DNA of 64,000 nt from Macrobrachium rosenbergii. Lineage: Eukaryota; Arthropoda; Malacostraca; Decapoda; Palaemonidae. The stretch is from assembly GCF_040412425.1 (NCBI RefSeq), contig NC_089789.1, forward strand, positions 38,731,106 to 38,795,105, given 5' to 3'. Of the stretch, positions 3,135 to 64,000 are shown piece after piece. Below the pieces are notes generated by a model. The model made no database searches. It had not been told where the DNA came from and worked only from the letters and a program-made list of their open reading frames with translations. Position 1 is the stretch's first letter, and each line of letters begins with the position of its first letter. Position numbers and translations under genes: made by a program.

Positions 3135-3316
<182 letters not shown>

Positions 3317-22064: not shown

Positions 22065-22067
<3 letters not shown>

Positions 22068-22152
<85 letters not shown>
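22068..22152. repeat. (AT)n microsatellite
   Basis: Pure AT, left of the Tigger-type MITE at 22,174. Confidence 0.95.
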
Positions 22153-22156
<4 letters not shown>

Positions 22157-22173
22157 AGTACTGTATATATATA

Positions 22174-22508
22174 CAGGCAGTCCTCGGGTTACGTTGGCCT
22201 CAGCTTACATCATTCCAAGCTTACGGCACTTTCCAAATATATTCATCAAAAAATCTGTTCTGGGTTGCTGTGGAAGAATATTTGTACATTTTCGGAGGAG
22301 ATTCTACAAGATCATGGATGCATACCTCACCAAAATCGAGGTAAATCAATTGGGAAGTTTTCAAGACAACCAAAGGCTTAAAGTTAAGGCCTTCATAACT
22401 TTATTTCTCATTTTTAGTAATTATCTATTCACGTTGTTCTGGTTTACATCGTTTTCAGGTTTCGTTCTGCTTCAGAACGGAACCCCTGATGTACCCCGGG
22501 ACTCCCTG
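22174..22508. mobile_element. Short Tigger-type MITE inside an (AT)n array
   Basis: The left end is CAGGCAGTCCTCGGGTTACG and the right end, reverse complemented, is CAGGGAGTCCCGGGGTACAT: a terminal inverted repeat. The interior of about 300 bases lacks a transposase. TA repeats flank both ends, as expected for TA-targeting elements. Confidence 0.65.
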
Positions 22509-22510
22509 AG

Positions 22511-22513
<3 letters not shown>

Positions 22514-22571
<58 letters not shown>
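22514..22571. repeat. (AT)n microsatellite
   Basis: Pure AT between the MITE and the inverted SINE pair. Confidence 0.95.
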
Positions 22572-22576
<5 letters not shown>

Positions 22577-22607
22577 CATCAACACACAATCATTGTGGAA
22601 CAGAAAT

Positions 22608-22991
22608 AAATTTCTGACTCATCGCCAGGGATCAACCACAGTCTCAGGTGGAAAGCAATATTATCCACTGGGCCATACAAATCTAAAGGATTGAAACCTG
22701 AGGTCTGCCCAAGGAATTACCTGGGCAAGCTAACTGCTTGGCATTTTCCCCAACTGACTCAGTAATGACCCTGAACAAGTTTAAAAGAATTGTCCTTGTA
22801 TTCACTCAGAGGGATGGTTTCGAATGAAATGTTGTCTGGGTCATTGCTGAGTCCAAAGACAGGGGAAAACTTTCTGGGCAAGCTAGTTAGCTTGCATGTA
22901 ATTCCTGGAGTTGCAGTGGACTTATGGCAGTGGATAACGCCCTTGCTCACCTGAGAGACTGGGTTTCGATCCCGACGTGAGTCAGAAATTC

Positions 22992-22992
<1 letters not shown>
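22608..22992. repeat. Head-to-head pair of tRNA-like SINE copies (inverted repeat)
   Basis: The right copy contains GGCAGTGGATAACGC (A-box-like) and GGGTTTCGATCCCG (B box), spaced as in a tRNA, and ends GTGAGTCAGAAATTCT. The left half is the reverse complement with more mutations (AATTTCTGACTCA...GGGATCAACC...TTATCCACTG). Arms of about 150-190 bases meet near 22,790-22,830. (AT)n flanks both sides. Confidence 0.7.

Positions 22993-23076
<84 letters not shown>
22993..23076. repeat. (AT)n microsatellite
   Basis: Pure AT with one GT, right of the inverted SINE pair. Confidence 0.95.
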
Positions 23077-26000
23077 TATATATTGGAATACTGCTATTAA
23101 ACAACTTCTGCTTAGCTTGTCTCACATAAAGCCATATTATTTCACTAGTTTTGTGAAATTGCATGTTTCAACCAAAGAAAATGTAAGGCCTCAATATAAA
23201 TGATGTACTAATGACTGCTCTAACTACTTCCAACTATTATTTTATTTCTAAATTAAATACAGTGTTTGTGTATAACTTTATCTCTGAGATTCTCACTGGT
23301 TTCCACTGATTACTCCTTGTTATCACAAAAAAAAATAGTACTCTTAGTATTATGGTGCCAAGTTTTACTTGTTCCACAAATAGTTTCCATGTTTTTCCAC
23401 TTGAAACTACATTAAATTTCATTGTTTCTGTCATGTAACACTCAATATGTCACATTTTAACATTTTTGCTCTGTTTGGATTTCCTTGAATTGTTCCTCCT
23501 TGGTTTTTCAGTTCTGAAAAGTCCAGCAAATCCCCTGCCACCGCCCCTTCTCAGCTCTTGTGCAGGATGGGACAGTTTGTGGCAGCCTTTTGGGGTCTCT
23601 CACTTGGGCTCTTTATGTTGGGCACTAGGCAGTTTGACACCAGACTCTTGGGTGCTGGGAATTTTAGTCCAAGTTAATACAAAAACCTATGGAGATATGA
23701 AACAATAGCAAAGATTAATAGTTTGGTTGTTTAAATAAGAAGGAAACAAATTAATACAAATTTCTAATGCCAGAAATGTTAATTTAAATGGCTAGTTGCC
23801 TTAATGGGTTTGGAAACATAATGGCCTTGCCAAATGGACAGAGTGAAAACAGCAGCACTAAAAGATACCCCACCCCCTCTCCGAGTTACTGTGATAATGA
23901 ATAGTCAATATCTGAATTACATCTTGATTTGGTAGAGCTTGGAATTAATGTATTTATACAGTATATAAAAGAATACAAGTAGGAAGTGGCACATGTGCAA
24001 TGTGGGACAGGCAAATCCTGGTAAGAGTGCCACACAAAGGTTTATTGATTTACATGTGTATTAGTCCTATTTAGGACACTATGTATTTTGCTACTTTCAT
24101 ATATATGGTAGGGCATTGCTTGTGCTGCATCTTTCATTATATCAGAAAATTATCATTATAGCTGAGGTAAGGATGAAGTTGCCCTGAATTTCATTTTGTC
24201 TGTGGCTTTTGGGACAACTGATTTACTATTCCGAACAAAAAACAGATTACAGTACTCTACTGAGATTACAGGAGATGAAATGTGATGTTGGAGCCTGAAT
24301 TGAGACGGAGATATTTATGTTTACAAGTGAAGTACAGTGTAGATAAATACCTAATATTGCTTGTATAGCGTGAAGGATTTGGTGTGGGGAAAATCATCAA
24401 AATGACATTTTACTTAATTATTATTTAGCTTGTCTGTTATCAAAGTTTGCACAGAGTGCTTAGGGTATAGGAATGTACAGGGATAGTTATATAAAAGATT
24501 TCTCTCATTTTGGTGATACCTGGTTAATGAGACTCACTTTGTGGTATGGCCCATATTTATGCAATATTTTGTATGCTGAAATATTCAGTAATCCAGCAAA
24601 GATTACAGTGAATGGGAATCATGGCAAAATTCTCATGCTAATGTACTGTACTGTACTGTATAATTATTATACTTAAATGCATAAAAGAAGTGAATTGCTA
24701 CTTATCGTGATGATAAATTATATACACTGTAATCTTTTTCATAATTTCAGACTTAAAGGGCTTGGTTAGAAGGATTTGCCCTTGAATGAAAGATGAAAAT
24801 TGGAGAAAGAAAGTTCAAGAAATTGACTAGGTAGAAAGGAATAGATCAAGGCAAATGAATGAATGAGAAAATACAGAAAGTAATAGAACCAAGGGCCAAT
24901 GTGTTGTTACAAAGCATAGTGTAATGCTATTGAAGTTTTGTACAGTTGCAACTCGGAAATATTTCCTGCACCTTATCTTTTTCCAATTCATAAGTGAAGG
25001 AATAATAAATTTACTGTGTCCATATTTTACTAAAGTAAGATTAACGCCATAGAGCTTACACTGAGGATGACATGGTATTGCAGATAGCAACTCTCAAGAC
25101 CAGCTCTAGTCCTCAATTTTGACTGTCATTATCTTCCATTTTGAAGCAGTGGTTGACTGTATTGTGGTAATTGAGCTTTATTAATTTTAGTTTATGTCAG
25201 GTTATCAGCACAAATCGTTCTCTACTTGGGTATCAATTGATCCCTTTAACTGTACACATAGATGATCAAAACTGGGCTGTCGACTTCATTTGGTACCTAA
25301 ATAAAAGATTGTCTGTTGCATTAGTTTGGATTAGCACAGTGTTGTGAGGTATATTATGTACAGCCATTGATGTCAAGGTTAAGCCCAGTAATTGCATTGT
25401 TCTTTTGAAGTGAGCCCTGAAAGCTTGAATCTTTCATTTGAATTAAGCCATATGGCAGTTTTCATGAATCCTGTTTCCATCCATAGAATAACTTGAGCTA
25501 CCCTTGGTAGTTTGTTTATGTTGATTTTCTTTTGTTGTATGGTCCACTTTTCTTGCTGTGACCTGTATGATGTTTTATGTGTTGAGTCATGAAAGCGTCG
25601 TTTGAACATTCTAGGCCGAGCTAATTATCCGAGAAGAAAAGAGGAAGATGTTAGTGGTTGTGATGCCATTGTGTGTTTTGTACTACGTTTGTTCGAGGCC
25701 TTGAACATATTGTGGCCTATATGTCACTTTGTTGATTTTCTGTGATTTTATATTGATATTAGTTTGTATGATATTTTAACATGATTCACTGTATCGTTTA
25801 GATTTTTACTACACTTAAGATAATATTTGTAATAGCCATTGCTTACTGTACTTCACGGTATTGTAAATGCATTGCAGAGTAGGCCACTTTACAGTGTACT
25901 GTATTTTATAGTGCTCTGATGTCCTGTATTGTGTCCACTTGTCCTGAATGCACAAATAGGTTTTATATAGTGAGAATTTGTTTAAAGAAGTGATGTGCTT

Positions 26001-29691: not shown

Positions 29692-29820
29692 ATGGCTGCC
29701 GTAGAGTCCAAAAGGGCTAAACTTTGGGGTGGACGTTTTGTTGGATCCACTGACCCAGTGATGGAAGCATTTAATGCATCCATTTCATATGACAAAAAAA
29801 TGTGGAAGGAAGATATACAG
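29692..29820 (+). CDS. ASL: ASL exon 1
   Basis: 43 codons from [16 protein letters not shown] to MWKEDIQ. The exon ends cag and is followed by gcaagt, a GC donor with otherwise perfect consensus. Joining to exon 2 in phase 0 restores the family order DVQGSKAYS. Confidence 0.95.
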
Positions 29821-32800
29821 GCAAGTTCTCACCGTGTGTTTAAGAATGTATCATTATTACTATTATACCTATTTTTTTTTTTCTTTTAGGAATGACATAG
29901 ATAAAAAAATATGGTCAAAACAACATGTCTTGACCCTTTGGGTGTTACTGTTGTGAAGTTCAAACCAAGATACTGTACCTTTCTTTTGCATGCTTCTATT
30001 GGAGAGAGAGAGAGGCTAGGCTGGACTGGACAAAGTTCTTCAATAGTAGATTTTTCACCTGCAGATTAATGCTGTTGCAGACAAAAATATACTGTATACA
30101 TTCACCTTTGCATTATATTGCACTGTAAGGCAATTATTATAGTTTTTTGGTTTGCCTCTTAGCATAGTTTTCTGTGGTTGTGGCCAACTTTGTCTCATTG
30201 TGATTGAGTTACTACTGACCTCTTCTAATTACAAATCTTGACATGGCAGGCCACACAGGGAAAATGATTTCCAAACTACAGTACCTTCCTTGCACAGGTG
30301 CCTCATTTATTATGTTGACTTTATAGTTTGGATCGTCTTCCACCCTCATGCTTACTACTTTGACAAATAAATAGGCTAGCTGAGAATGGAACCCACCTGC
30401 CCAATGAAGAATTGATCACATCTGAGCATGACTATATTTAGGCTGTTTCAGATTGAAACAAAAAGTACTTTCTAAATTTAAAGCTGTATTGTAGATAGAA
30501 ATTAGGGTAAGGTGTAAATCCTATGGGAAATTGTTAAGATTGCTTAATTCTGTTTTAGGGTAGTGTGGCCTATGCAAAAGCTTTATTGAAAGCAAATCTT
30601 TTAACGGAAACCGAATGTAACAACTTGATTACCGGTTTGGAAGAAGTTGAAAAGGAATGGGAAGCTGGCACTTTCAGTATTCAGCCTGGTGATGAGGATA
30701 TTCACACCGCCAACGAACGTAGACTCAAGGTAAATATATTTATAAAGTATTTTTTTGAAGTCTTTTCCTGTATTTGTCTGGGTAAGGTTGATGTTTATAT
30801 TAGTCCAGCTAGTATTTAACAATTATTCACAGCATTTTTACCTTCTTGTTTTGTCATTTTAGATATGATCATCTGCTTTGTGTTAGTATTTTTAACTGAT
30901 GTACAAGGTAATTGCTCTGTGCTGAAGTTAGTAGATCTACCTATACACTAGATCTTCCTGTAAACCAGCATGTGCATTGAAAGCCAGGAACTTGTGGTTA
31001 CGCTACTCGGCTGACAGTTTTTAGCACCAAATTTGATTCTTAAGTCTTGTTTCGTTATAACAAATAAATACCCCAGAACTCTAGAGAACATTGTTGTAAG
31101 ACTTCAGTTTTTACACTTTGGTTACTTGACTGTGAAAAGATTGTTATTGTTTTATTCCGTTTGGTAGGTAAGGTGTCTTTAGATGAAGAGGCATTTATGC
31201 ACTGGAATTCTCTCTGCTTCTTACTTATTGTAACCTTTCCATATACAGGTACTTAAAAAGCCCAATAACCTTTCCATATACAGGTACTTAAAAAGCCCAA
31301 TAGTATGTGAAGGCTTTGTGATTTTCAGTCATGTTTTTTTTAGAATTATAAGTTAATGTACACAATTTAATTATCAACCTGAATAAAGTACCTTTAGCAT
31401 CAACATGGATTGATGGGTTTAATTTATTAGATTATAAATTTATTGTGCATAAGTAACTAATATTGAAAGCAAATATTATCTCTAAAGGAAATTGTTGGTG
31501 AAGTCGGAGGCAAAATTCATACTGGCCGTAGTCGCAATGATCAAGTAGCCGTTGATATGAAGTTGTGGTTACGAGGGCACCTAGTTGATATTTCATCACA
31601 CCTTGTAAATTTCATCCAGGTAAATGTATAATGTAAGATTTTTTTTATATTTAATTGGCTGTCTAATTGTACCAAAAACTAAGTAAAGAGTTAAGTTTTT
31701 TATTAATTACCGAATGCAACTTTCCATAATTTTTCCCTCAGGCCAACCCCAAAAGACTCTTGGAACAGCTTGGAGGTCTTTTGAAATATTTTGAGTACAG
31801 CATGAAAGCATATAATAGTAAAATTGTTTAAATATGAAAAAATTTTGTTTTTAAGTTTTCTTGGCTGTACAAATAGAAGGAAACAGAAGCATTGAAGACT
31901 GGGATTTAGACATTTTTCACTGGTCATTCTTGTAAATTGTCAAGTGTGTACCACTTATGGTGCATTGTATGACATTGTAGATGATACTAAAATTCCTTTT
32001 ATTAACCTCTTGGCCTCAACTGCATTGCTTTCTGCATTCTACTTTTCATCAAACTTGGTTGCTTCCCACCTAGCTGTTCAACAACTTTACCTTATCATTG
32101 CTGCAATTTTTGCATCTCGTTTACAAACAGATTTTTTAGGAAACCAAGCAAGTCTAGAAATGTTACTTGGTGCTTCTGTTAAACATAATTATATATAATA
32201 CTGAAATATAACATTTTGCCTTTTTTTTTTTTTTTTTCAAAAGAATGTGTGGAACTATAATGGTGTGTTTATTGTTGCATATTCACAAGTACAGTATAAA
32301 CTGGAAAGGAACAGAGGCAACAGTCACTTGAGTTCTGGGTAACAGTGAATTTCACATTCAGTTTTGCATAACTTAGTGTTTATTTTCTTTTCCATTCAGA
32401 AATAAGCCCTTTAATACTTAATAGTAAATTTGTCCTAGATGTTCTTCATACCTGGTATGAAGCTTGATTGTTGGGTCATGCTTAACCATTTGTTTGGGAA
32501 TATCATTCTATCAGGTAGCTCAGAGTTGATTTTATTATGATATGAAATATGATTATAGCAAAATTGCTATAATCATAACATAACATACTTTATGAAGTAA
32601 AGCATGTTATGGAGTTATTGCATCTGCCAACCTTATACACGTTCTATTTTTCCATGAGATTTATACAGCACATATAGATATTGTAACATATCTATACAGG
32701 AGAATGTGTTTGTATGTACTTGTCACTCAGCAGTACAATTATTTTTATCCCAGGTTTTATTGGAAAGAGCAGAGAATGAGAAAGAGATTTTGATGCCAGG

Positions 32801-35800
32801 CTACACCCATCTTCAGAGAGCCCAGCCCATTCGATGGTCCCATTGGTTACTCAGGTATTTTCAAGAGACTGCAATCCAGTACTATCATAAAACTCCATTC
32901 TTTTTTGTTTGCCAGAGTGTACAGTGATTGCTTTTTTTAGCTGCTCTTTGTATATTAAGATTTGGTATTTTCAAGTCATTTGATAACAAATACTTAAGAT
33001 CAGCCCTGTGAGAATCAAAGGATGTGACCCAGTGATCTGGTTGCTTACTTATTTAGAGTTGGGTTCTTCTCAAGTTCCACTCCAGTGAAGGTGCTCATTC
33101 AGTTGTCAAATCCACACTATCATAACACGTAGAAAATAAAAGTCTTGGATTTTTTCTTGAAAGATTTGATATCATGAGTCCTTGATAACAGATATGAGCT
33201 TACTGTACAGTCTTTGAGCTGAAAATAGGAAGGCCCAAAAACAGTATCATAGTGCATCTTAGCTCAGATAAGTTGAAACCATATCTGTGGCTTCAGAGTC
33301 TCACACTGAACCTAGGTTACATGTCTTTATACATTTCTCCTTCAGTGGGCAATTACATTCACTCAATTATTAACATTCATAAGACTGCCGTTACTTCACA
33401 GTTCTAAGTAACCATGATCCCAATTAATATTTATATCTTCATTTATTTTCTGAATGTCCAGTGGAAGTTGTTGCAGTCAGCACAAGTCTGTGTGATGCAA
33501 GTAACTTATTTGATATGACTTCATCATGACTTTCTGGGTCATCCATCCTTGGGCTAAGTCCCCACTGATAGAGACTCATCACAAAATTGACAATAATTTT
33601 CAGAAGTATAACAAATTCCTTAATAAAACCATTTACACTTGACCATGTCAAAGTCTTTAAGCAACAGTAAAACAGATTCTCTAAGTATTTTAAGTTTACC
33701 TCAGTATATTCGAAACTAATTCCCTGAGTCCTTTTAATAACTTTTAAGGTGAGAACAGCTGCTGAGAACAAAAAGTCTGACTCCTTCCCTGAACCTACCC
33801 TGTCTTGGATTAGGCTATAAAATAAAGTACGATTAAGAGGATTCATTTCTGCTATCTTAATGCTGTCAACATCTTTTGGCCATGCTTCAGCAACAGCTAG
33901 TGTATCAAAAGACTTCTCTAATTTGATGTATTTTGTTAACAACTAACTTAATATTTGCAAAGCTGCTTTTCAGGACATTAAGATTTATGTATCCATGCTG
34001 TTAATTGATGCAATTTTTATTTTCACATCTAAAGCTTTGTAAATTTGTGCATTCATCCAGTGTTTGATATCTTGTCTTTTCTGTCTCATACAATTGAAGG
34101 GTAGACTACTTTGTGCTCATAATAACAGTAAACCCTCTTTTAGGAAATATCATGTTGTAGTTGATAAAAAAAATACATATAGTACAGTAGTACAGTATAG
34201 ATAAATGGTTAAATCTCATAGCTGTATGTTGTCAGCACCTCCATTAGAAAGCAGTATGGTGTAGGTAAATGGTAAAATCTCACTATATGCATTGTTGTTA
34301 ACACCTCAATTATTATAAAGCTCTTCTCTTGTTAGCTGTTATGTCAAAGCCTTCATATGCTATGAGAAAGAGTCGTAGGTGGTGGTCTGTACTTATCATG
34401 AGAGCTATGGTCACATTCTTTTAGTGCACTTTAATCTCTCTGTGCAATAGCTTGATGAGTGATAGTAGTATTTAATGTGCTTATTTTTTCCTTTAAATCA
34501 AAGACCTCATTTTTATATGAAAAGTAATGCTAACCCTTCTCTTTCAGCATTAATAATGAACTTGTTCCTGAGGTGAGCTAATATGCATTGCAGTTGGTGG
34601 TTGGTGAGACTAATTATCTTATCAACTTCCGTTGAGTGATGAATAAATATTTTTTTATGATTTAGCTGTGCTGTAGTTTTTTTGAATAAGCATGCTAGAT
34701 TTTTCTTTAAATAAGCATGCTATATGCACATGGAATACTTTAAGGGAATGCTTGTCATAGTAGCCGATTCATAGACTTTTTATGTCTAGTGTTTTCAAGT
34801 ATTATTAGTGTTTTCATCAGATAATTTGTCTTGTCCGTTATTTTTCTGTGGTTTTTAAGCTCTATAAATTAGTGTAGCATGAGATTTTATTACAATATTT
34901 GTTGCAAGTAGGGTAGGCATTTGTCTTTTTGCTTTTGTTAGGTGTGCCTTTTCATCGTTGATGTTAGTTCAAGACTCTGTGGTTGTTTTACGACTACAGC
35001 AACAATTGGAACTTGACTTGTCTAGTTTCCTTATCTGCCTTTGTTTACAAAGTATTTTGTAGAAACAGCAGTGCAGATGAAACTTGAACTTACTGTCTAA
35101 TCAGTTTCTGCTGATAGCTTTATTTTGGGAATTTGTGGTGTTTATGCTTAATAACATTGCTAATTGTGTCAAGCAAAGAGATAGCTAGAAGTAAGGGTGG
35201 ACCTTCATTGTTAAATAAATATGGACAAAGAAAATTTGTTGAATACCATGTATTTTTGCTTCTTATTACGTATATTCACTGCCTTCCTCTTTACACTGGT
35301 CTGGAGAGAGAGAGATTTTGATGAGTGAGGTAGATCTTTCTCTGCCAGAAGAGGTCACATCAGTCATGTAACCACAGCTAATACTTATTGGTCCCCCCCC
35401 CCAACCAATCTCTCTCTCACAGTATGTTCATTCACATTATTTGATGCAGTACAGTACTGTAAAGATACAGTAATGTTGAGTTAAACATTTTACAGTGTGC
35501 ATGTGTAAAGGGTATACCCACAGTATGCATCACATTGGATAAATTATACCCAATGTGTTTGCCAGCCCCACCTCTCTCTCTCTCTCTGTTTTGTTTATGA
35601 AGAATTTGGGATTACTTATGTTTAAAGCTTTTTTTAATTGTATGGGTTTTGTGTGCAGTATTTTACATATCTCGTAAGTGTGTGTACGTGCATTTCTAAT
35701 AAATTCATTTTGCAGATATATCTGAATTTGAATGATGAGTAGATTAATATAGGCTATTAAGTATACTTCATTTGGAATTGCTCTATATTCTCAATTATGC

Positions 35801-38800
35801 CTTGGGTACCCTGTCATGTAGGTTATATGTCAGTCGTCATACCTTAGCAGTTTTCAATTTTAAACCAGAATTTATTTCTGATAGTTTGTTTATTAAATTA
35901 AAATGACAAAATTTATAAACAGCGTGAAGGCATCTTGATGTGTGTTAATTCTTGTTTTTTGTTCATTGTATGGCGACATCATCCTTAGTTTTCCTCAAAT
36001 TGCTAGATGCATTACATGACTAAGAAAAAGTCTACCATTGAGCCATTGCATTTCCAAAAGTGTTTTCCCAGATGATGGTGAGTAAAGAAATTAAGTACTG
36101 ATACAAGCTGCATTCGTTCGTATGCTTTCCACCCTTCAAGTTCCATAGTTTTATCATGATTTGTGGAAGCATTAATTTAGTGCTCTTAGCAAAATAAAAT
36201 TTTTAGAAAATTAGTTGTCTTCATCTCACTGATACCTTTCAATTCAGTGCCTTTGCCATACTTTGTAGTTGCTGCTGCCTAGCGCTAGATTTTTTGATAA
36301 TGAGATGACTAATAAACTTTGTAAGGTAGGATGGATTATGGAGACATTTTTTATTTTGCTTTTATGTTATGTTATTAGATTTTGATTATCAATGTCGGTC
36401 TTTTCCTTTGTCGAGTTGCTTCTTGCTTCTGTTGAGGTATTAAAGTCAAGAGCAACTGAGTTGTTGTAGACTAAAAAATGTATGTAAGGGGTAGATATAG
36501 AAATAAGTCAGAGTGAAGTAATAACTGTACTTTGTATCCCTGCTCATTTCTTATTATACAGCTGTGGCTGTTAAAGCCTCCTTCTGCTACATTATCCTAA
36601 ATAATTATGAGAGTAGTTGGGGAAACTCTAACATGCACAAGTTTTGGGTTTAATTCTTGTTCTAGTAATTTTTTTTGATCATTTAAACAGTTTGCATGAA
36701 TTTTTGACATGTTTTTGTTAGATTGTAAACAGCATGTAACGGCACCTACATTTACTTCATGGTTTTCTGTTTTACATTAACTGAGCCTTCAATATTTTAA
36801 GTAAGTAGTCATTTGTGATCAACTCTAGAGTGAGTATTACGTTGGTGCTAATAAAAGTTTGTTTTATCTTCAGCCATGTGTGGCCAGCTGTGCATGACTT
36901 GGAACGACTAACAGGCTTGTACCTAAGGGTTAATGTTTGTCCCTTAGGGTCTGGAGCATTAGCTGGTAATCCATTCAACATTGACCGACAAAGTCTTGCT
37001 GAAGATTTAGGGTTTGAGGAGGCTACTGAAAATAGTCTGCAGGCTGTGAGTGACAGAGACTTTGTTGGTAAGTTAGAAGCTATTTTTTTCTACTTAATAA
37101 CTGTTATTAATATTATTTTGTAATTGGTGTAGTGTTGTTAATAATTTAAATTTTTGTTGAAGCTGATTAACAGTGGGGCTGCTTTGGTATAATGGTGTTG
37201 TTAATTTACATTTTTGTTGAAGCTGATCAATAATGGAGCTGCTTGTTTGCATTGCTTGATTCCTAAGGAGTGGTGCACATTACCCTAACAAAATAACCAA
37301 CTTTTAAAATAAACTAGATTTTTGGTAACTTCATTCCAGTTCAAATGAGATGGAACCAATCCCAAGAATCCATATGAAGATGGTGAATTTGAGTTTCTGA
37401 GGGACAAACTTTAATTTCAGACTTGCAAAGTTTATGTTATGCTTTTAGATTCTCCTTTCTCCATTGCTATCATAGAGAAGAACTGAATGGTGAAAAAAAG
37501 TTGATGGGTAGACATACCAAGTAGGCAGATTGTAAGAAAGGTATAAGCCTCTAGAGTTAATTGTTTCAAAAGTGTTACTATTCAGAAGAGAAGACTACTT
37601 AGCAGTTGCAAAGCTTCAGGAAACCAGCACTTGGGTGTTCAAACATCTTGTCGGTTTAGTGAGAAGGTTTTATAAATGTCCAAGTCGAGCAAGGAACAAG
37701 TTCTACCCTTATATTCCTTAACCATAGTGGTCTTGTTCAGCACAATGTAACTTATATGTATTTGAATTGTACTTTGGTCTAGTCCAACTTAACTGTCTTA
37801 ACTTTTCAACTGTACTTAGTTCCATTTTCAGATTTTTAAAATAAATCTGATTGATATCTACCTATAAAACTTTGTGGTCTCATTAAATTAACAATAACCA
37901 GACCTTATACAGATGGTATTGTGACTTGAGCTACTATTAAATGTTCACCCTTAGTGTTTCTCCCCACTAGCTCTACCTTCTTTCTTTCTTGCCTATGCCC
38001 ATGGACTTTGCCTTTCTCCTACTTGCTTTGATTGTGATTCATATTGACTCAACATTATCAGTCTCCTCATGTTGAGTCACTCCATATTTACCAGCACCCG
38101 GATCTTCTTGATGTTCAACTATTGGCATTTCCTGCTGTTCGAGTTTGTTAGTTGCATCTTTATATTCAGCAAATCCCTGGTCCTCTCTGATCTTAATTCA
38201 CGTTTGTTTCATGTCCCTTTTAATGACTGATTTTGATTATTAACCCATACAACCCAACCCCTGAATGCAAATTACAGAGAACAGCACTTAGCGGAAATAT
38301 ACCTTTAGTGGTTGTCTGACTTATCTTGGGAAGAAATTTTATAATTTTTTTCATTATTTTCAGTGTATTTAGTGATTACATTGTTATGGAATTGTAATAT
38401 AATACATTCTAATATAGCTCATCAAGAACAAATCCCTTATGAGACTTAAGAAGTTAACTTACTGGTGTGGTAAAACTTAAATTATTCATTAGTGACGATT
38501 AAAGACTTCATTTATTCCATTCCAAGTTACTACCATGATCTTGTTAAGTGCCCAAGTCTACGCTGATCTTAGTTCAATGGGTGTTTGCCGGAGTATTCCT
38601 CTTTGCTTTACTTGATCTAAGCCCACATTATTCATGTCACTTAACCCGTTCCCTTGAACATTTTTCTAATCTATGAAAAAGCATTAGTTCCATAGGTGTT
38701 TGCCAGAGTATTCCTCTTTGCTTTACTTGATCTAAGCCCACATTATTCATGTCACTTAACCGTTCCCATAAACATTTTCTTAATCTGTGAAAGAGCATAT

Positions 38801-41800
38801 TTTATTGCATTTCATAAAAGTATACATATATATATATAGGGGTATCTCCACAAGTGTTTGTATATGGAATGATATACTGTACTTTTAAATTATTATAGCT
38901 CAAAATAGCCTTCTTTTAGTAACATGAGCCACCCCTAAATAAATGTTTTAAAAGTAAGTTGAAAAGAAAAAATTTTAAGTATAAGAATTTTATATTCTAC
39001 AATATAAACATGTTAATCAGTATTTTGCAGTTAACATGCAGAAAATATATATATTTCAGTATAAAATAAAGCAAAGTGCAAGTACAGTACTATTTTATTT
39101 TGCAAAACCTGTGATCTTAAACATTTCCAATTAATATGGTAGATAGTATAGGATGTTTAGCTCAGCATTTTTGCAAATCTGGCATTTATTTTACTGTATT
39201 ATATTGCAAAGCATTATTATTACAAGTATATTAAAGAAACATTTCACCCCTGTTGCTGGATGCCATTATTTTTTATCACATTTTCTTGTTAGTTTTTGTT
39301 CTGCTGTTCTGCAGTTATGTTAGCTCCAGAACTATCAAATCAATACTGACATCATTCATAAACTGCATATTTTATAAATTGTTACCCTTGGTAGCAGAAT
39401 CATTCTGAATCCAGCTATTACGTACAAAAGTGAAAGAAGGCTGGGAAGTTCCACATTTAATTGACCTCTTCCTACCCGTAGGATTTGGCATACTTCCTTT
39501 TTCACTTTCATCTTCAACTGACATTCTGCTATCACAACCAGAACCCTCAGTACATGCAAAATCAGTGCTATCATGTTTTTTTTTTTATCACAGTTCATGA
39601 TCTAAGTGAAGTAAAGAAGAGGCAGTTTAGCAGGGATCTTGATTGCTCTCTCTGAACATCAGCTCTAAAATTAGAGAAAAAAAAAACATTTTAACACATC
39701 CTGACATTTATTGCATTGATAATTACCTGCTGGAGTTTGTCCATTTTTCTTGTGACAGTAGTTTTATGTATGCTGTAACGGCTGAAAATAATTGGGATTG
39801 GTAGGGAAGGGGTAAGAATTAATATGGTCGACTCATCATTCTCACTGAAGTGGTAAAGTTTGATATCTTCCAGTATAATTTTGAACAGCTTCAGTACTTA
39901 TTGTCAGACTCCAGTATATAGAGAACTTCTTAATAATTGCATTATTTAAGCTGCTGTACAGTATACCAAAATAATTAGAATAGTATTTTATGTAGGAAAA
40001 TTAAAGGTAAGAAATAACCATGAAAATTGAGAGGGGCTGATGTTTTTAGGAGTAAGGTATGGATTTTGATTAAGGAATAATTTTTTTTAGAAGTTGGTGA
40101 TGAATATTTTAGTGATGTGATTAGTACTCATTATTGAATGTTTTTATGAGAGTCAATTTTATTTGAAAACTTTTGTCCTCAGTGGAATATCTCTTCTGGG
40201 CGAGTTTGCTGAGCTCACATTTGAGTCGTCTGGCAGAGGACCTTATTCTCTACTCAACAAGTGAATTTGGCTTTGTAAAGCTTCATGATGCCTATGCAAC
40301 AGGCAGTTCCCTCATGCCCCAGAAGAAGAATCCAGATAGCTTGGAGCTGGTGAGAGGAAAAGCTGGAACACTGACTGGAAATGTAAGTTGTATGTGCTAA
40401 TTATGTTGGTGAATGATTTGAGGTTTGTGGACTTACATTAGTGTGCATTAAGTACAAATTAAAGTTTTATAACTAAGCATGAGAATTCTTTGCATGAATA
40501 CACATTACTCCATGTGATTTTTGCAAAAATTGCTGTTTCTCTCCATTTGTTCAAGAGTAAGAAAGATTTTTATAGAACATTATATACATATGATACATAA
40601 ATCCTTTTGTGCATTTTTGTCATTTGATTTTTTTATACTGTAATTAAAGTTCAAATTTCTTGCTTGTAATTCAGTTGACTTTTTTTTTTTTTTTTTACTA
40701 TTATCATTCCTAAATTTTCTTGGCTTGACTCAGCAGCCTGAATTTCATAAAATAAAATTCTGTAAAGTCTCGGACCCACAAAGGACACCTTAGGAGAATG
40801 AATGAATGAATATAGTACAGTAATTCCTAGTTTATCCTTATTTGCGCTGTGTGGACATTAGCGTTATTTGGAAGGTCCACAAACCACATTATGTATATGC
40901 AATATACAATAATTAAAAATTATAAAAATTATAAAAAGTGCCTGTATTGCGGGGGTAGTAGACGGGGAAGTGGTTTGGGGATGGAAAAGCTGAGTGGATA
41001 GGGCTGGGCAGGCCTTTGTCTTCATGAAAGCTTTTATGACTGTTATTGACATGAGAGTGCTACATCAGTTTACAGGTTATCACACACATCTTAGCACTTT
41101 GAAGTGGCTGAGAAATGTCACCATCACAGTGTAAGCATTCCCACTTTTGGTACAGAAGTAATAGATCATTACACATCATTATATTTTTTGCCTTTGTGAG
41201 TGGCTAAAAGAGATAACATTGTGGTAAAGCACACTTTGTTACTTGTTTCAGTTGCCGGTCATTTCTTGGTACAGTAATTGCATATTAAACCGTTGCTGTC
41301 ATTGTGTATGGCGATGCTTTTCCCAGGTCTTATCAGTTTTGTTCGGGTACCTGCAGGTTTGCAGGAGCTGTAAGTGCTGCATGTATGGCCCTACCACCTC
41401 CTAAGAGGGCTAAGAAGGTGTTAACACTACAGTATAAAGAGAAAGCTGGAAAATCATTGAGAGAATCAAGGCTTGCTGGCTGATGTCCCACATCATGGCT
41501 GAGTATGCTGTTGCACATTCTTCCATGCTGGATATCAAGGCAACCAAGGATGTGACGGATATTGGGAAGAAGTTATCCAATAGTGAGGCTTGCAAGATGA
41601 TGGCCAAGCTGTGTCATGAGGAACTTTAACAGTTGTCCTTGATCTGGTTTCATCAGCAGAAGTTGGCTGGGATGCATGCCCATGGTTCTCAACAGAAGGC
41701 TGTTGCTACAAAGTTCACAGGTCTGTAAGGGGTTGTGGACTTGAAGCATTCAATGGTTGTCTGTTTTGGTTCAAAATTCAACATGGTCTTACCAACAAGA

Positions 41801-44800
41801 ATCCTTGGATACTTCTGAGGGAGGAATAGAGTAATTTTAGCAGATGGTAAAAGACTTAATGAAAAAGAAAGGTCTTGTTTTGAGTCCAATCTATAATGCT
41901 GACAAAACTGGTCTATACTGTCACTCCTTTTCCACTAATACCTTGGCTGACAAGAAGGAAAAGAATTTACCTGGTAGAAAGTTTCTGAAGTAATGCTTGT
42001 CTGGTTTGCAATATGCAAAAGCTTATGGTTGCCATTGTTGCAAACCAGTCATAGTTAGACATGTGAAGCAACTACATGTCATGTGTGGGTTGATGGATAC
42101 TCTCCCAGTGATCTAGTATCCTTTGGTGAAAGCTTGGTTCACTGCCAATATCATTTCCATAAACACTTTTGGAAGGATGTTATTTGTCAAACACTGGACC
42201 TTGGCATTACTGGACATCAAGTGAAGGCTTTGCTTTTAGTGGATAGTGTGCCTGCGCAGTCTACCACAACTCAGTGACAAAGGTCATATGAGGATCATGT
42301 TTTTGCCTCATAATATGACTGCATTCATTCAGCCAGTGGATCATTGTTGCAATGAAATATCTATACTGGAGGAGGTGATGGTAGTGTTTGAGGACAAGCA
42401 GGAGAAGGAGCAAGGCTTAGATACAGGGGGGGTGGTCTTCAGAATTATTTGCTCAAGTCTGCCATCTACAACTTCACAGATGCTTGGAGGGATGTCATTG
42501 TGTAGGCCTTGGAGTATGCTTTGAACCCTTTCCTGAAGTGGGAAGAAGGCTTAATTGAGTTTCAAGTTTTCGACATTGACAACTTTCATGCTCAACTTGC
42601 AAAGGAAGCAGTTACTGCTGGAGAGTTGGAGGAGGAAGCCCCTGAAGATGGTAGGCAAACCCACCCCCATCCTACAATGTCATGCAGATGATTTTGGACA
42701 ACTTGATCAAGCTGATGCAGAACCCCAACATAGACCATAAATGTTTCCCAGGGCTTTGGAGTTTGCTGAAGGTGCATGAGAAATGTGGCAGATGGCAACT
42801 GTGAAGCAAAATATTTGTTCTTTTCGTCGAGTATCCTTGACAGCTTCTTCAGTGCCCTAAGCCCATCACCATGTACTTCTTTGGTAACTCAGTTGTTCAG
42901 CTCAGAAATGCAAGCACATACTTCAGCACACTTTGTTGATGTGCCAGGTTCTTCCAGCCAGGAATCTGAACTATCTCTGCCGTCTCTGAAACCCTTAATG
43001 CCTCTTACTAACTGTTCACCATTTCATGACTGGGATGAGGAGTAGGACCTTGATGAGACTGGTGTTGGCGGAGGAGGAAGACTTGTAAACCCTCCTTACA
43101 AGTTTTTAAAAGTCTGGCCATGTGTGCAGTTTTGACATTGCACACAGGTAAGAGAGGAGAGTTTTTTTATTTTTTTATTTTATTTTACATATACATTTTA
43201 TTTCAAAGAAAGTATGAACTTACCGTTTTATGTAAGTACTGTACAGTACAATACCTATTGTGCTGGTTATAAACACATAAGTGTTGTAAATCTTGTTATA
43301 AAATAGGGGAAGAAAAGGTAACAACTTATGGTTCACATCCATTCATAACTGTAAAGTGTATTGTTTGTTATTTATAAGCATGGTGACAAGGTAGAAGTAA
43401 AGGTGTGAAATTAATGTTTTTCATGTCCGGAAATTTCCAGTGTCTGGCAGGGCTTTAGATGTATTAACATGGATAAACAAGCTGAATGACTGAGTACCAA
43501 AGATGTGTAATGGAAGTAATTTTCAACTTCTTTGTTTATGAATTTTATGTAGATTTGCTTTTGATATATTACTTTAATAACTTAATAATCTCTTGGTATT
43601 TTCAGCTTTGTGGTTTCATGATGGTCATGAAGGGTCTTCCTTCTACCTACAACAAGGACTTACAAGAAGACAAGCTGAAATTATTTGAGACTGCAGAGGT
43701 TCTTGCTGGTGTACTACAAGTGATGGCAGGCACAGTGCAAACATTAAAGGTACCTTGTTGTATTTGTTTGTAGTGTAGGGATGTCCCATTTATTGTAGGG
43801 TTGCATGTTGAAATTCAAGAAGTAGCTGGCATATAAATTATAGCTTATCTCTTTTATGGTATTGGTAATTGTACATTAATGGTAGTGTATACATGTTTTG
43901 GTAGTGCATACATATTTACCTTATATTGGGAGCTACAAAGGCTATGAAATGTTTCAATTATTAGTGTAGATAGTAATTTCAAATTTAAATGGTTGAAAGG
44001 ATTTCACCAGAAAATGGACATTTATATGAAGGTTTTCTCATTCTGGATGGTAAAAATAACTGATGTTTCTAAATAAGGAAAAACATCATCACCATATGCT
44101 ACAAGAGGAATTAGAAATCTTTAGATGCAAACGTAGGATATTTTTGGCTTCGTATTAAAGCAGTTAATGATTTTTCATATATAATATTGACAGTCATTGT
44201 ATTTATCGATGTATATATGTATTCATAAATTCATCAAAATACCAATCCATTTTTAATCGGAATACAGCAGTAGGTTATTACTTAAGTGCTTGATTTGTAC
44301 TCCTGTTAAATATTAATAAAGGTTTGTATGGTTTTTATTTATTTGTTTACAGGTCAATGCAGATGCTTGTCGTAGAGCCCTGTCTGAGGAGATGCTTTCC
44401 ACTGATGTTGCCTACTACCTTGTCAAGAAAGGGGTAAGGGAAACTGGATTGTTACGTATTTCTCGTTAAATGGTTTTTTCCTTTTTATCCATATGCCTCG
44501 AATCCATCTTGTTACCATGGTTTATAGTGCCAAACTCAAGAGTACAGCACAGTGAGCCTGCAGTCATGTTTAGTTGTACTGTATTGCCTACAGTGTGTCA
44601 TGTGTGGAACCACAGTAGATAGTACTGTACTAAAGGTTTGTGCAATGTTGCTTCTACCTGTATCTGTATCAGTTACTCTATATTGTTTATAATGTTCCTT
44701 TTTTTTTTTTCATTGGCTATTCACTGTAAATCCTTTTGTCAAGTCCAATGGGAGTCTAGAAATGTGACTAGGTGGATTCATTAAATTTTTCTTATAATGA

Positions 44801-53323: not shown

Positions 53324-53486
53324 CATAAGATAGGCATGAGGCTATCATCTCAATCCATAATCCTCGATGGAAACTGAAATGGTAACACCTGAAGCATCCC
53401 CTTTCATGGGAAACACACACACACACACAAACATTATATATGCGTATATGTACATACATGAGACAGTATACTATATACGTATAGTG

Positions 53487-53599
<113 letters not shown>

Positions 53600-53995
53600 A
53601 TACGTATTTAAGCTTATTTGTAAAAAAGAAAAAAAAAAAAAAACACCATCTTTGAACTATAAAAAAATTACCGGGAGAAACCAAGCCTTCGAGTTTCTTT
53701 TGCAGGACTCCGATAAATCATAGGCCATGTGACTTTCTTGCTGTTATTGATGATGGATTTTCATCTTCATGTTTTACCAAATTCTGTATACGGAGATGGA
53801 AACGGCCCGACTACGTACTTACCGGTTTTCCAGAATGATAATGTGGCGTTGCACTATAACAGACATACCATTCGGGTCGTGGCGCAGTTGTTATTCTGTA
53901 CGGTAAATGTGAGAGTATTTGACGAGATGCCAACACGAGAAAATTCCATGGATGCATTTTGATTCGAAGAAATATGAAAAGCTTTAGGATGAAAA

Positions 53996-58400: not shown

Positions 58401-59806
58401 TTATTGTTAGACAAACTTTTAAAAATGCTAGACCTAGTGTTGAACATACACCTATAAATAATTTGCATAGTGCGACAAATCTGACGTTTTTCTGGCGAGC
58501 TATATGGGTCTGGTGTTACTGATTAACTTTCTCAACTACAATATTCTTAAATTCTTAAACGTGTAATGGTTGTAATCAAGGTTTCAATGTTTTGAGAAAT
58601 CAGTTTCTTGAACATTTATGGGCAAATAGTCTTTCAATCATTTTTTTTTCACCTACAGCAGGTTTATCTAAGACTTTCAATATCATAGCTTAAAATTTTC
58701 AATATTGAATCCTAAACTTTTTCAGTCATATCTCTCTGCATTGTAACTTTTGCATCAAACTATATGACTTTTTGCATCTTATCAGCTAAAAGAAATTTTA
58801 AAATGCTCTTCTTGATACCGTCTAATCTCGCCATTTAATTTGCATGCGAGAACACACCAACATTTGTTTTGCAAAGAAAGTAGTTATTTGTCATTCATTA
58901 TATACAAAAGTTCCAGAAATTAATTAGGATTTGTTTTGAAGGTCTCGTGGAAAAAAAGTCAATTATCCACCAAACTTTCTCCCACACATACGGCATTAGC
59001 GTTTTTATTCTGCATAGGCCTATGTTTTTTTTTTAAATCCTTATAAAATCATACCTGGAACGCCAATAATGTTTCTTGCTATATCCATAGCCATTTATAG
59101 TGCATGCTCTGTTAAGGTTACAAAAACCATGCGTCTTGACGCTAGATTTCACCCACAGCATCTAGTCTTTGTGACAAGCGTGTCCATGTTTGTTATCTTG
59201 CAGACATAGATCGGACCCAACTAGCGGCATTATAATTAAAACCAGCCCCGTAGACGCAAGATTAACTGGTTCTATTTAGGCTATATAACATTGCATTCCA
59301 TGAACAAATTAATATTTTAGTTATAAAGCAATAAATATTTTGAGTCCGTCACATGTGACAGCATAGGTACCATGAAACTCATCCGTTTAACAGCTCCGTA
59401 TAGAACGACAGGTTACGCTCCTTGGTTAATGTCTGGTAGTGCTTCGTGACAAAAGGCTACTTAAAAAGTTACTGTAGAAATAAGCAATGGAATAATTCTA
59501 CAAACAACGACGTATATTTATATAAAGTTCCACAAAACTGAATTATTTGCAGACTTTGAAGAGTAATACTCAGGCAGACATGGGCAGAGGTAGGCTGAAG
59601 TATAAAAATAGGCGGTTTTGGAAGCTTATAAATATACCATACCTGACGTACAGCACACTACATGAATGGTCTTCGTGGTAGATTTTATCACAGTTCCAAG
59701 AAAACTTGAATTTGTCAAATCAGTATCTCTGATTAGGGTTTTAACGACAATAAACCAATATCACAGAAGACAAGCCAACTAGTTTTAATCAAGTTATTTG
59801 GCTTTT
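55435..59806. other. Downstream flank of the secreted peptide gene, no gene supported
   Basis: CpG-containing unique DNA with a short AT/GT microsatellite at about 56,930-57,005. Several isolated - strand donor-like sites (for example gtaagtgaa near 57,733) but no coding exon that I can chain. Confidence 0.45.
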
Positions 59807-59812
59807 TTTATT
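59807..59812 (-). terminator. Candidate polyadenylation signal of the secreted peptide gene
   Basis: AATAAA on the - strand (tttatt on +), about 95 bases downstream of the TGA. Position and spacing are typical for a short 3' UTR. Confidence 0.4.
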
Positions 59813-59905
59813 TAACTTAATCATACAAAAAATAGGATAAAATAAGAACGTAGTTTAGTACTCCAATATTTAATAAATTAAAAACGCTGTTAATTTGTGG
59901 ATCTC

Positions 59906-60059
59906 TCAATCATACAAACAAGAACATCGTATGCGTGATCCTCCCCTCAGGAGAAGTGGATGTTCAAACGGATTTCGACAGCAGTATCTATATCCTCCGT
60001 AGATTATGTATAGCGGACCAGCACAGAAGCCAGCCACGTTATGTCTGTTTCCGTAGTCA
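59906..60059 (-). CDS. Secreted peptide gene, exon 3 (cysteine-rich C-terminus)
   Basis: The acceptor is T9-acacccatag; one base completes Ile100, then 50 residues starting DYGNRHNVAGFCAGPLY, with YRYCCRNPF and ending RIRCSCLYD, then TGA (59908-59906). Composition (about 48% GC) is higher than the flanks. Confidence 0.65.
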
Positions 60060-61712
60060 CTATGGGTGTAAAAAAAAAATCTGTTAGTGGTCGACGTCTA
60101 CACACCAGAGGAAACATATTTCAAAGCGGCTTGCAACTTTTTTCAGTAGATCAATGCAATTTCTACTGTCTTACGCCAATGTTCTAGAGGAATAAAAAAA
60201 ATTTCCGGTAAAGTTTTACTTTAAACCATCACAATCTGGACGTGAAAACCTGTTTTAGTGTGCTTTGAACGTTTCTAATTTTACTTTCGTTTGCAAATGA
60301 CCTAACTAACCACACCTAAAATAACTTAAGGAACCAGGTCCTTACCCTAGTGCATGCACCTGGGGTACCAGGTCCTTACCCTAGTAAATGATATGGTGAG
60401 GTTGGTATTGTCATTTGCAAACAAAACTAACGTCAGAATCATTCAAAGAACACATTCACACACAGGAAAATTATGTTTTCAAATCCAAAATGTGATGGTT
60501 TAAGTAAAATTGCACTACATTTTACTTCATAATTTACTTACATGGACCTGTAGCACCTTCCTCTCCTTACTACAGCAGGTAGATCCAGTTTCATGTCATC
60601 AAGTACAGTAGTAACGTTCCCAGGTTCAGAGTCAAGAGTAGTCAACAGCATCGAGCAGGCTTCATCCGAGAGAATTTCAGGGTCAGACACATCTATGAGC
60701 TGTTCATCGTCTTGCGTTTCAGCGTTAGACGGATACTCGTCAACCTTTAAAAAAAATTTTTTTAGCTTAGTAGAATGAAAGCCATGCTTGCAATTTAATT
60801 CACAATCTAGACCCAAGACACCCACTAAGTGGTAACACCTGCTTACTGCTCCAGGAACCTGAATCAGTGTTGGCATACAGCCAGCCTAATCAACAACAGG
60901 GATATGTCTACAGGATGCACAGTACTGCCCAGACTGTTGCACAGTTCTATACAAAGTGTAACAGACCCTTGGCTGCCTTGCTTATGCCTATTTTCAAGAT
61001 GTTCCTTGGTACCTTTTCTTACACCTACCTGTCCTACCTCTAACCTGGCTGAACAAAAGTTTTGGGAAAGACCTAATCAGAGTAATTTAACTATGGTCGC
61101 CAAAGTAACGAGCTCAAGTAAGGTTTTGTTAACATCAAATACCGTCATGCTATAAATTTAGTAGTGCAAGCCTCTGAGGTACAATAAATAGTTATATTAG
61201 TAGGAACTAACTTATAGTCAACCTTAGTTTGAATTTAAGCAAATTATATTCTTTGAACATGTGAACGTCCATGAAATTAACTCTACCTGGAAATAATTTC
61301 TGGCACTCTCTGCTTAAATACAATTATGAAAAACCTAACCTTGAAAGAAAACCCTTGAAAGCCTCTGTACTTAAGTCAACTAAAACTTACCGTTAACATT
61401 AGCATGCAATCTCTAATCGTAAAACCAGTAATTCAAACTCAAAATTTTATAAGATCATCCTGCTCCATTAAGAATTCCCATGTTTATCAAAGCTTACTTT
61501 CCAGAATTTGGTTTAGGGTAGATTAACTGAATACTTGAGTCCTACAAACTTAACGAAAAATCACCAAAATCTGGTATTAAATCATTATAATTGCCCCCGA
61601 TATGGCAGTAACGTACCAGCGTTCCAACTGGTGTCCAGCCATCATTGTCCGTTGCAGTAACACCCAGCAAGATCAGAAGTCCATATACTACAAACACCAA
61701 TTTCGAGTTCAT
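59906..61712 (-). CDS. Secreted six-cysteine peptide precursor, unrecognised family
   Basis: Three - strand exons (61712-61617, 60744-60542, 60059-59906) join in frame to 150 residues. Residues 1-20 are a signal peptide (MNSK, then LVFVVYGLLILLGV). Residues 21-91 form a strongly acidic pro-region rich in D and E with one cysteine (C62). R92-R93 is a dibasic cleavage site. The predicted mature part, 94-150, is basic (about nine Arg and two His against three acidic residues) with six cysteines at 96, 112, 126, 127, 145 and 147: spacing C-x15-C-x13-CC-x17-C-x-C. Introns are phase 0 and phase 2, both GT-AG. A polyA hexamer lies about 95 bases after the stop. The architecture is that of antimicrobial or hormone precursors. 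The spacing does not fit crustin, ALF, penaeidin, beta-defensin, CHH or insulin as I know them. I cannot name a function. Confidence 0.68.
60205..60520. repeat. Inverted-repeat element in intron 2 of the secreted peptide gene
   Basis: Arms of roughly 100 bases: about 60,205-60,305 and the reverse complement at about 60,402-60,520 (shared blocks GTTTGCAAATGAC, TTTACTT.AAACCATCACA and GAAAAC). The centre holds a short direct repeat, accaggtccttaccctagt, at about 60,328 and 60,369. Consistent with a MITE or foldback insertion. Confidence 0.7.
60542..60744 (-). CDS. Secreted peptide gene, exon 2 (acidic pro-region, RR site)
   Basis: 67 codons plus two bases, from VDEYPSNAETQDDEQ to AVVRRGRCYRS. 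The acceptor is a T tract ending aaag. The donor is at+gtaagtaaat, a very strong site. Reading through the donor gives an immediate in-frame TAA, so an unspliced reading would stop one codon later at RSM and lose five of the six mature cysteines. Confidence 0.68.
61617..61712 (-). CDS. Secreted peptide gene, exon 1 (signal peptide)
   Basis: 32 codons from ATG (61712-61710) to GGA ACG CTG, then donor gtacgt. It encodes the signal peptide and the first 12 pro-region residues (TDNDGWTPVGTL). The sequence ctttcag sits directly before the ATG, so a 5' UTR intron is possible. Confidence 0.68.
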
Positions 61713-61893
61713 CTGAAAGTGGAAATGTTGTTACATTAGGATACTACAACATATACTTCACAGACTAGTGTTTGAAGGGTTGAATTTTGATGTACCAGCA
61801 AAAGTCGTCACTAAATCCTATAACTACGTAGAGGACAGGCCTACATAAGACAATCACTGAAGATATATACAAATCTCATCTGCGTTCCAAGCA

Positions 61894-62097
61894 CTACTGA
61901 ACGAGCGCAGAGTCGCAGACAAATCTGCGTTGACAATAATGAAAAAAAATATGAGCTCGAGTCATCCTTAGTAATACACTCATAAAACTTTTGTAAAAAT
62001 CAGTAATCAAAAACAATAAAAGAATGGGTAACAAAAAATGCGCCATCACACAGGAGACCACCACAGCCAACAGAACTCCCAGTTTAAACATAAACAC
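61894..62097 (-). other. Small - strand ORF with signal-peptide-like start
   Basis: 67 codons. It begins MFMFKLGVLLAVVVSCVMA, a textbook signal peptide, then a second hydrophobic stretch (HFLLPILLLFLITDFY). It lies about 180 bases upstream of the secreted peptide gene on the same strand. No clear donor after the leader; it may be chance or a leader exon of an alternative transcript. Confidence 0.25.
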
Positions 62098-62391
62098 TAA
62101 CCAACATATTTCACAAACAAAAAGTCACCTTTCAAATCTTGACTCTTGAGGACGGTCTACAGTACTGCTCAAGTATCCCAACAACCATAGGAATTGGTGT
62201 TTCCTTGATTACTTTTTCCAACTCATATGGTCCATTTTCTTATCAGGGAAGAAATAACCAAAAAGAGAAGTTACTTATCGAATCTCAAGGCAAAAACAAA
62301 TTCTGTTGATAAAGGCGCCATCTATGAATTAAATTCTGAACTAAATGGTGGCTACAAATATTACTGGTGCTGGAATAGTACTTTTTGACTC

Positions 62392-62394
<3 letters not shown>

Positions 62395-62477
<83 letters not shown>
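62395..62477. repeat. (AT)n microsatellite
   Basis: About 40 AT units. Confidence 0.95.
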
Positions 62478-62483
<6 letters not shown>

Positions 62484-62629
62484 TCAAAATTAAGGGCGTA
62501 CATCCAAGGAAAGGAAAAACGAGCCCAAGACTGTGAAATATTATGGAGGCTATGGAACTGACGATTTGTATGAAAGTAAATTTCCCTTTTTAGTTTTCTG
62601 CAAAAGAAAACCATTATGCCGGCTTTTTC

Positions 62630-62965
62630 TGTCCTCCCTCAGATCTTAAAAACTACTGAGGCTAGAGGGCTGCAAATTATGTTGATCATCCACCCTCCAA
62701 TCATCAAACATACCAAATTGCAGCCCTCTAACCTCAGTAATTTTTATTTTACTTAAGGTTAAATTTAGCTATAACCGTGCTTCTGGCAACAATATAGGAC
62801 AGGCCACCACCGGGCCGTGGTTAAAATTCGTGGGCCGCGGCTCATGCAGCATTATACCGAGACCACCGAAAGATAGACTTGTTGTCGGTGGCCTTGATTA
62901 TACGCTGTACAGAAAATTCGATTTCACCGAAGAAACCTCGGCGCATTTTTTACTTGTTCTATGAA
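62630..62965. repeat. Dispersed repeat with internal hairpin
   Basis: Begins with an imperfect inverted pair (ACTGAGGCTAGAGGGCTGCA / TGCAGCCCTCTAACCTCAGT) and continues with GCCACCACCGGGCCGTGG, GGGCCGCGGCTCATGCAGC and a terminal CGAAGAAACCTCGGCGCA hairpin. GC-rich against AT-rich flanks. I associate this sequence with abundant decapod repeats; that link is from memory. Confidence 0.5.
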
Positions 62966-63215
62966 ATCACACATTTTTACCTGAATATTTTACCACTGTT
63001 TTCTTTGTCATTCTTGCCTGTACATACTTTTAAGAAAACAGTTTTCTCCTTTATCCTTATATTTGCTACCATTTGACAGAAAATATCTCCATTGAGCCTT
63101 TTTTTATTGTTTATGTGTTCATCTTTCCTTGTTCGCCCATTTTTTTCACATTACCTTAGCAGAACGAAATTTTTCTATACTTCCTCAAAGTAAATTAGTG
63201 ACTTTATTTATAGAA

Positions 63216-63508
63216 GAATGAAATGGAAAACAAAATTTAGGACAAAGTTCAAGCGCTGGAAACTATGAAGCCATTCAGCGCTGAAAGGGAAATTAAGAAT
63301 AAAAAGGTTTGAAAGGTGTAACAGGAGGAAAACCTCGCAGTTGCACTATGAAACAATTGTTAAGAGAGGGTGGAAAGTAAGATGGAAGAGAATGTGAACG
63401 GAGGTACAGAAGGAATGAAAGGGGTTGCAGCTAGGGGGCACAAGGGACGCTGCAAAGACCCTTAATTAATGCCTGCGGTGCACCGCATCAAGTTCACTGA
63501 CGGCACTA
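63216..63508 (+). repeat. Dispersed decapod-type repeat, copy 2
   Basis: Opposite-orientation copy of 1,934-2,215. It starts with an A-rich GAATGAAATGGAAAACAAAA and contains CATTCAGCGCTGAAAGGGAA and GGTGTAACAGGAGGAAAACC. Confidence 0.75.
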
Positions 63509-64000
63509 TCCTCCCGCGGCGTTTATTTATGTTCATATTGCGTCGTCTGGTAAAACTCCTGTTCACCTTGTATTTTCAAGAAAAATTGCTTTGAAACAAA
63601 TAAATATTTTTTTTTACATTCTCACATTTTAGAAATTACCAACAGTGGTAGCTTTTTTTTTTTTAAACTTTGCTGCTGTACCATCTGGGCTTACTTAGAA
63701 TGACCTTACATGCAATGGTCCATTGAAAAGGTCTTCCAGTATGTTATTGCTGACGAGAGTAAGTACTACTCTAAATACCTTTCCCTTAGTTTTTATTATA
63801 TATTGTTTATCATGCATTAAGACAGTCTTATCTAAATTAATGTTCATTTATGTTTTCTTATTATGACAATCACTGTTTTTCGCACGGGCCATCTATTCTC
63901 TCTGGGCTAGCTTTTTAATAGTACATGGCCTTTTTTACTTGTTCCATATAAATGCTTACACATTTTGTATGCTAACAATGACCTTGTTACTTATGATTTT

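Follow-up and report, generated by a model that had tools for sequence, protein, structure and literature searches.

A three-exon locus on the minus strand of a 64,000-nucleotide stretch of the Macrobrachium rosenbergii genome (the window) is, as judged from its sequence, a real, unnamed protein-coding gene; we tentatively read its product as a secreted cysteine-rich propeptide, lineage-restricted or very fast-evolving, that would be cut at an RR site and would most likely serve in host defence. When the full-length precursor was compared with ~5.8 billion proteins (E ≤ 10), the 1 match out of 30 candidates was an NCBI entry termed 'uncharacterized protein [Macrobrachium rosenbergii]' (P0001), identical at 150/150 residues with 100% coverage. 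This entry has neither a precomputed Pfam domain nor a function in its name and belongs to a cluster with two member sequences, the second of which may be closely related to it (≥90%). Because an identical entry exists, the gene has evidently already been predicted by others, with name and function never given. The original prediction of an "unrecognised secreted six-cysteine precursor" thus stands insofar as its family and function are unassigned, whereas the gene model itself was already in NCBI.

The coding exons lie on the minus strand at 61617..61712, 60542..60744 and 59906..60059, and the coding sequence joined from them has 453 bases, i.e., 150 codons and a stop. Exon 1, which matches the NCBI protein, holds the ATG, the signal peptide and the start of the pro-region, and ends in phase 0 at the donor CTG/GTACGT. 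Exon 2 holds the acidic pro-region with Cys62 and the sequon N75-V-T, the RR site (60562-60567) and Cys96, and ends in phase 2 at the donor CAT/GTAAGT, while exon 3 supplies the remaining mature peptide with cysteines 112, 126, 127, 145 and 147 and the stop codon. From the inferred cleavage site, the first part of the mature peptide (GRCYRS and two further bases) would occupy 60542..60561 and continue at 60059-59909. Both introns are of the GT-AG type, intron 1 in phase 0 and intron 2 in phase 2. The exon coordinates (61712-61617, 60744-60542 and 60059-59906), the phases and GT-AG sites, the precursor length of 150 residues, the RR site and the cysteine spacing reproduce the original prediction, as does its remark that a naive ORF (60538-60885) stops one codon beyond the exon 2 donor. 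The donors of introns 1 and 2 are strong (ranks 39 and 35 among 3288 GT sites) and the acceptors of moderate strength (ranks 487 and 440 among 3759 AG sites of the minus strand), all sites being scored with approximate matrices. An alternative acceptor of exon 3 situated 21 bases upstream (exon start 60080) would add the seven codons of FFFYTHS and yield a 157-residue form; this was set aside and the shorter exon 3 retained because the NCBI protein uses the shorter form.

Beyond the NCBI entry, the architecture of the gene can be assessed against chance. A scan of the window for a signal-like first exon, two introns, an acidic pro-part, [KR]R and a basic mature part whose cysteines are even in number and at least six recovered one locus, namely the peptide gene, and such a chain was seen in 0/60 length-matched order-1 Markov sequences, a null to be taken as indicative because the criteria were chosen after the gene had been seen and the splice matrices were approximate. 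Coding was not supported by codon usage: of 4514 random 450-base stretches, 1605 scored equal or higher, and two other frames of the coding sequence outscored the real one, on a training set of just 341 codons drawn from the neighbouring argininosuccinate lyase gene. This lack of a gene-like codon usage, on a small lyase-trained measure, and the moderate acceptors would suit a locus that is no functional gene, i.e., a reading frame that arose by chance or is decaying and was also joined, by accident, by a gene predictor; set against the empty Markov sequences and the exact agreement of the NCBI model, this is very improbable.

On the 5' side of the coding region, the acceptor ATTTCCACTTTCAG immediately preceding the ATG is strong (rank 116 of 3759 AG sites on the minus strand), and AAG/GTGACT after 62129 is the top-scoring donor within 61713-63900. 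Together these make a non-coding first exon likely, giving four exons overall, with a probable 5' UTR intron at 61713..62128 (minus strand) as predicted with the approximate matrices. Within this predicted intron, just upstream of the peptide gene, sits an ORF (61897-62124, minus strand) with the signal-like stretch MFKLGVLLAVVVSCVMA; a role for it as an alternative first exon was rejected, there being no Pfam match at E ≤ 0.1 and, by eye, no fitting phase-0 donor. On the 3' side, motif matches give candidate polyadenylation signals on the minus strand at 59874 (ATTAAA), 59812 (AATAAA) and 59789 (ATTAAA), spanning 59789..59874. Intron 2 houses a fold-back (inverted-repeat) element of ~283 bases (60221..60503, minus strand; combined arms 60221-60316 and 60395-60503), the outer pair of arms being 81% and the inner pair 78% complementary, which is probably the insertion of a small non-autonomous transposon.

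The features expected of a secreted and processed propeptide, i.e., a signal-like start and a convertase-type RR/RRGR, are present in the precursor. Its N-terminus forms a hydrophobic signal-like segment, the cut of which we presume to fall between A20 and T21 by the -3,-1 rule. The pro-region (D22-R93) has a net charge of -15.2 and a pI of 4.05 and ends in RR, and the 57-residue mature part has a net charge of +4.9 and a pI of 9.08; the charge switch pointed out at the outset is therefore present. The mature part has 3 prolines and a cysteine framework of C-x15-C-x13-CC-x17-C-x-C (loops 15, 13, 0, 17 and 1). To this description can be added two features of the pro-region that were absent from the original prediction, namely a seventh cysteine (Cys62) and the sequon N75-V-T, along with a possible second cut site at RRGR, right before the first mature cysteine (RRGR/C).

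A search of the 150-residue protein and its mature part for a named family matched none in Pfam or PDB at E ≤ 10. Pfam (24736 families) reported 0 matches each for the precursor and the mature part at that threshold, with HMMER filters that discard most weak matches, and the PDB sequence search likewise gave 0 each; in NCBIfam there was one sub-cutoff chance match to the LSD1 zinc finger (E 0.11, 12.1 bits vs a cutoff of 15.5). Nine cysteine patterns also failed, eight of them generic, namely those of beta-defensin, CS-alpha-beta defensin, penaeidin, CHH, knottin, insulin A chain, cystine-knot growth factor and WAP. The ninth is that of big defensins, C-X6-C-X3-C-X13(14)-C-X4-CC, as given in PMC10608444. 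The cysteine framework is, on these searches, unmatched in all libraries and patterns covered.

Several of these families nevertheless share individual traits with the prawn peptide. Big and beta-defensins are similarly cationic, with six cysteines and an adjacent CC pair, but membership among them was rejected, since the big defensin pattern of PMC10608444 is absent, as are a broader beta-defensin pattern and any Pfam match. Crustins were rejected on the grounds that a WAP domain has eight cysteines vs seven in the whole precursor and that no Pfam match was returned, anti-lipopolysaccharide factors, which have an LPS-binding loop between two cysteines, on the grounds that their Pfam profile was unmatched, and CS-alpha-beta defensins on the absence of C...CxxxC...C...CxC. 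The CHH superfamily shares secretion, a precursor peptide, a dibasic site, six cysteines and a first loop of 15, but the remaining spacing misfits the CHH pattern and Pfam gave no match, and it too was rejected. An insulin-like identity was likewise dismissed, the A-chain CC-x3-C-x8-C being absent and Pfam giving no match. With cystine-knot growth factors and Spaetzle-type ligands there is a likeness in the pro-region, the basic cleavage site and a C-x-C near the C-terminus, but the prawn peptide lacks CxGxC and has a much shorter mature part (57 residues), and again without a Pfam match the assignment was rejected. Knottins have the order C-C-CC-C-C in common with it but differ, as compared by sequence only, in that loops of 15, 13, 0, 17 and 1 do not fit the short loops of knottins. 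Penaeidins carry an adjacent CC in the middle of their framework, as does the prawn peptide. Penaeidins are further described in PMC10608444 as secreted decapod peptides with six cysteines, a likeness offset by the absence from the prawn peptide of a proline-rich domain (its 57 residues include 3 prolines) and of the penaeidin spacing; with no Pfam match at E ≤ 10, membership was rejected here as well. The misfit to crustin, ALF, penaeidin, beta-defensin, CHH and insulin that had been claimed agrees with the lack of any Pfam family at E ≤ 10 and with the failure of tests against mostly generic patterns. The original suggestion that the precursor may be that of an antimicrobial peptide or a cysteine-knot hormone is compatible with these results.

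AlphaFold2 run without an alignment gave a pLDDT of 40.9 for the full-length P0001 protein and of 44.5 for the exon 3 part alone, the latter with two short strands only. In the full-length model the pro-region contains helices and the mature part strands, no more than a hint at a pLDDT of ~41; claims about the fold are unsupported because both values are too low.

The distribution of the peptide was gauged with residues 88-150 as query, for which the sole match, among 6 candidates, was its own NCBI entry; the filter of this search demands a few shared exact five-residue words, so that more diverged or unannotated relatives would escape it. A control query with argininosuccinate lyase brought up at least nine named decapods among 120 listed of 6046 matches: Macrobrachium nipponense (95%), Homarus americanus, Scylla paramamosain, Penaeus japonicus, P. 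indicus, Procambarus clarkii, Panulirus ornatus, Cherax quadricarinatus and Petrolisthes manimaculis. This control demonstrates a stocked database rather than sensitivity for a fast-evolving 57-residue peptide. With self-matches alone in a database stocked with other decapods, the peptide looks narrowly distributed, or fast-evolving, within the range of an exact-word search. A tblastn search for a second copy in the window gave none that was convincing: among the matches listed, only the three exons had convincing E-values and the best other row had an E of 0.53.

Under the tentative reading as a defence peptide, the signal peptide would route the precursor into the secretory path, where the acidic pro-segment would neutralise the basic peptide and aid its folding; a furin-like or prohormone convertase would then cleave after RR (or RRGR), three disulfides would lock the resulting 55-57 residue peptide, perhaps in a beta-stranded form, and the processed peptide would work extracellularly, most likely as an antimicrobial. 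Narrow distribution and a cationic, cysteine-rich mature part are common among defence peptides, and a defence role is preferred because these properties co-occur with a charge-neutralised precursor in many of them. Counted in its favour are the exact NCBI match, the 0/60 Markov chains, the charge switch, the RR/RRGR and the self-only matches. Counted against it are the modest charge (+5 over 57 residues), a framework that resembles none of the tested defence peptides, the unremarkable codon usage and an exon 3 model of two short strands at a pLDDT of 44.5. Also counted against it is the lack of a kappaB-like GGGRNNYYCC site near the gene, in a scan that takes in the ~2 kb of upstream DNA falling inside the window, which as a whole is not enriched, with 4 matches vs 3.16 expected, the nearest at 43.8 kb.

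The peptide may thus function in defence or in signalling, the latter being the main rival. RR cleavage is just as typical of hormones, and a hormone- or cytokine-like peptide, which we hold to be rather unlikely, would use RR as a prohormone convertase site; its pro-region would then be a precursor-related peptide, and its mature part, locked by disulfides, would bind a receptor. The dibasic site and the acidic pro-region with its N-glycosylation sequon are in keeping with such a role, as is the single-copy mature peptide, the matches listed for the window including no other convincing copy. Hormones, however, are usually conserved among decapods, and here no Pfam family was found, nor, within the sensitivity of the search, any relative in a database with at least nine other decapods. 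The peptide was not found in passages of the M. rosenbergii neuropeptidome paper (PMC4449106), a result that carries little weight.

Rapid evolution would also follow from some other secreted role, e.g., as a protease inhibitor, a seminal or egg-coat component, or a cuticle or mucus protein. Lineage restriction and a disulfide-rich sequence suit reproductive and inhibitor proteins equally well, and the odd Cys62 in the pro-region could mean that the protein is dimeric or stays uncleaved; processing is favoured, however, by the charge switch and RR, and with no inhibitor domain reported by Pfam we consider such roles unlikely. A further reading concerns origin and is compatible with the others: the peptide might belong to a known family (e.g., big defensin, penaeidin or a cystine-knot factor) from which it has diverged, the likeness surviving only in structure. 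Short cysteine-rich proteins shed sequence signal fast, and models with pLDDT values of 40.9 and 44.5 are too poor to bear on the fold, but the failure of the nine cysteine patterns (eight generic, one cited) and the empty Pfam and PDB sequence searches at E ≤ 10 speak against it, and we regard it as improbable. It is possible, if doubtful, that the peptide represents a Macrobrachium- or palaemonid-specific family of processed secreted peptides, locked by disulfides, with an undescribed framework, C-x15-C-x13-CC-x17-C-x-C, and fold, which would act in prawn immunity or reproduction as effectors of a new class.

Orphan secreted cysteine-rich peptides are common in arthropod genomes, and because of this the locus is a sound lead rather than a demonstrated new class. 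Neither the peptide fragments nor the cysteine pattern occurred in any paper of the open-licence PMC set. Should the product prove to be a defence peptide, the antimicrobial peptides listed for decapods would gain an unclassified family, from a prawn raised for food; should it prove to be a signalling peptide, it would represent a hormone specific to its lineage and invisible to homology-based neuropeptide mining. Under either role, existing full-length transcript data, such as the public M. rosenbergii Iso-Seq of 13 organs and haemocytes (PMC11373640), allow a direct check of expression.

Elsewhere in the window, the argininosuccinate lyase gene (29692-43749, plus strand) is convergent with the peptide gene and has at least seven exon pieces (29692-29820, 30559-30729, 31488-31622, 32754-32855, 36887-37066, 40218-40379 and 43606-43749, all plus strand), which when joined match Lyase_1 at E 2.9e-90 and a M. 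nipponense protein at 95% identity. ARAGORN and Rfam gave no matches across the window. An ORF at 42240-42521 (plus strand) is by eye reminiscent of pogo/Tigger-type transposases, with no Pfam match at E ≤ 0.1, and another at 14112-14369 (plus strand), which contains EEKTIWRQLCRFHWTPAQIEHIIQMHRELQVQKNWKQIYDRLRR, is possibly an exon or a piece of a transposon, with a weak sub-cutoff Myb-like match (E 0.019). Long simple repeats, of TA, CA/TG and the like, occupy 569-1758, 3104-3433, 22056-23200, 53361-53717 and ~62398-62480, and the simple repeats of the window yield spurious ORFs of the YIYIYI and CVCVCV kind.
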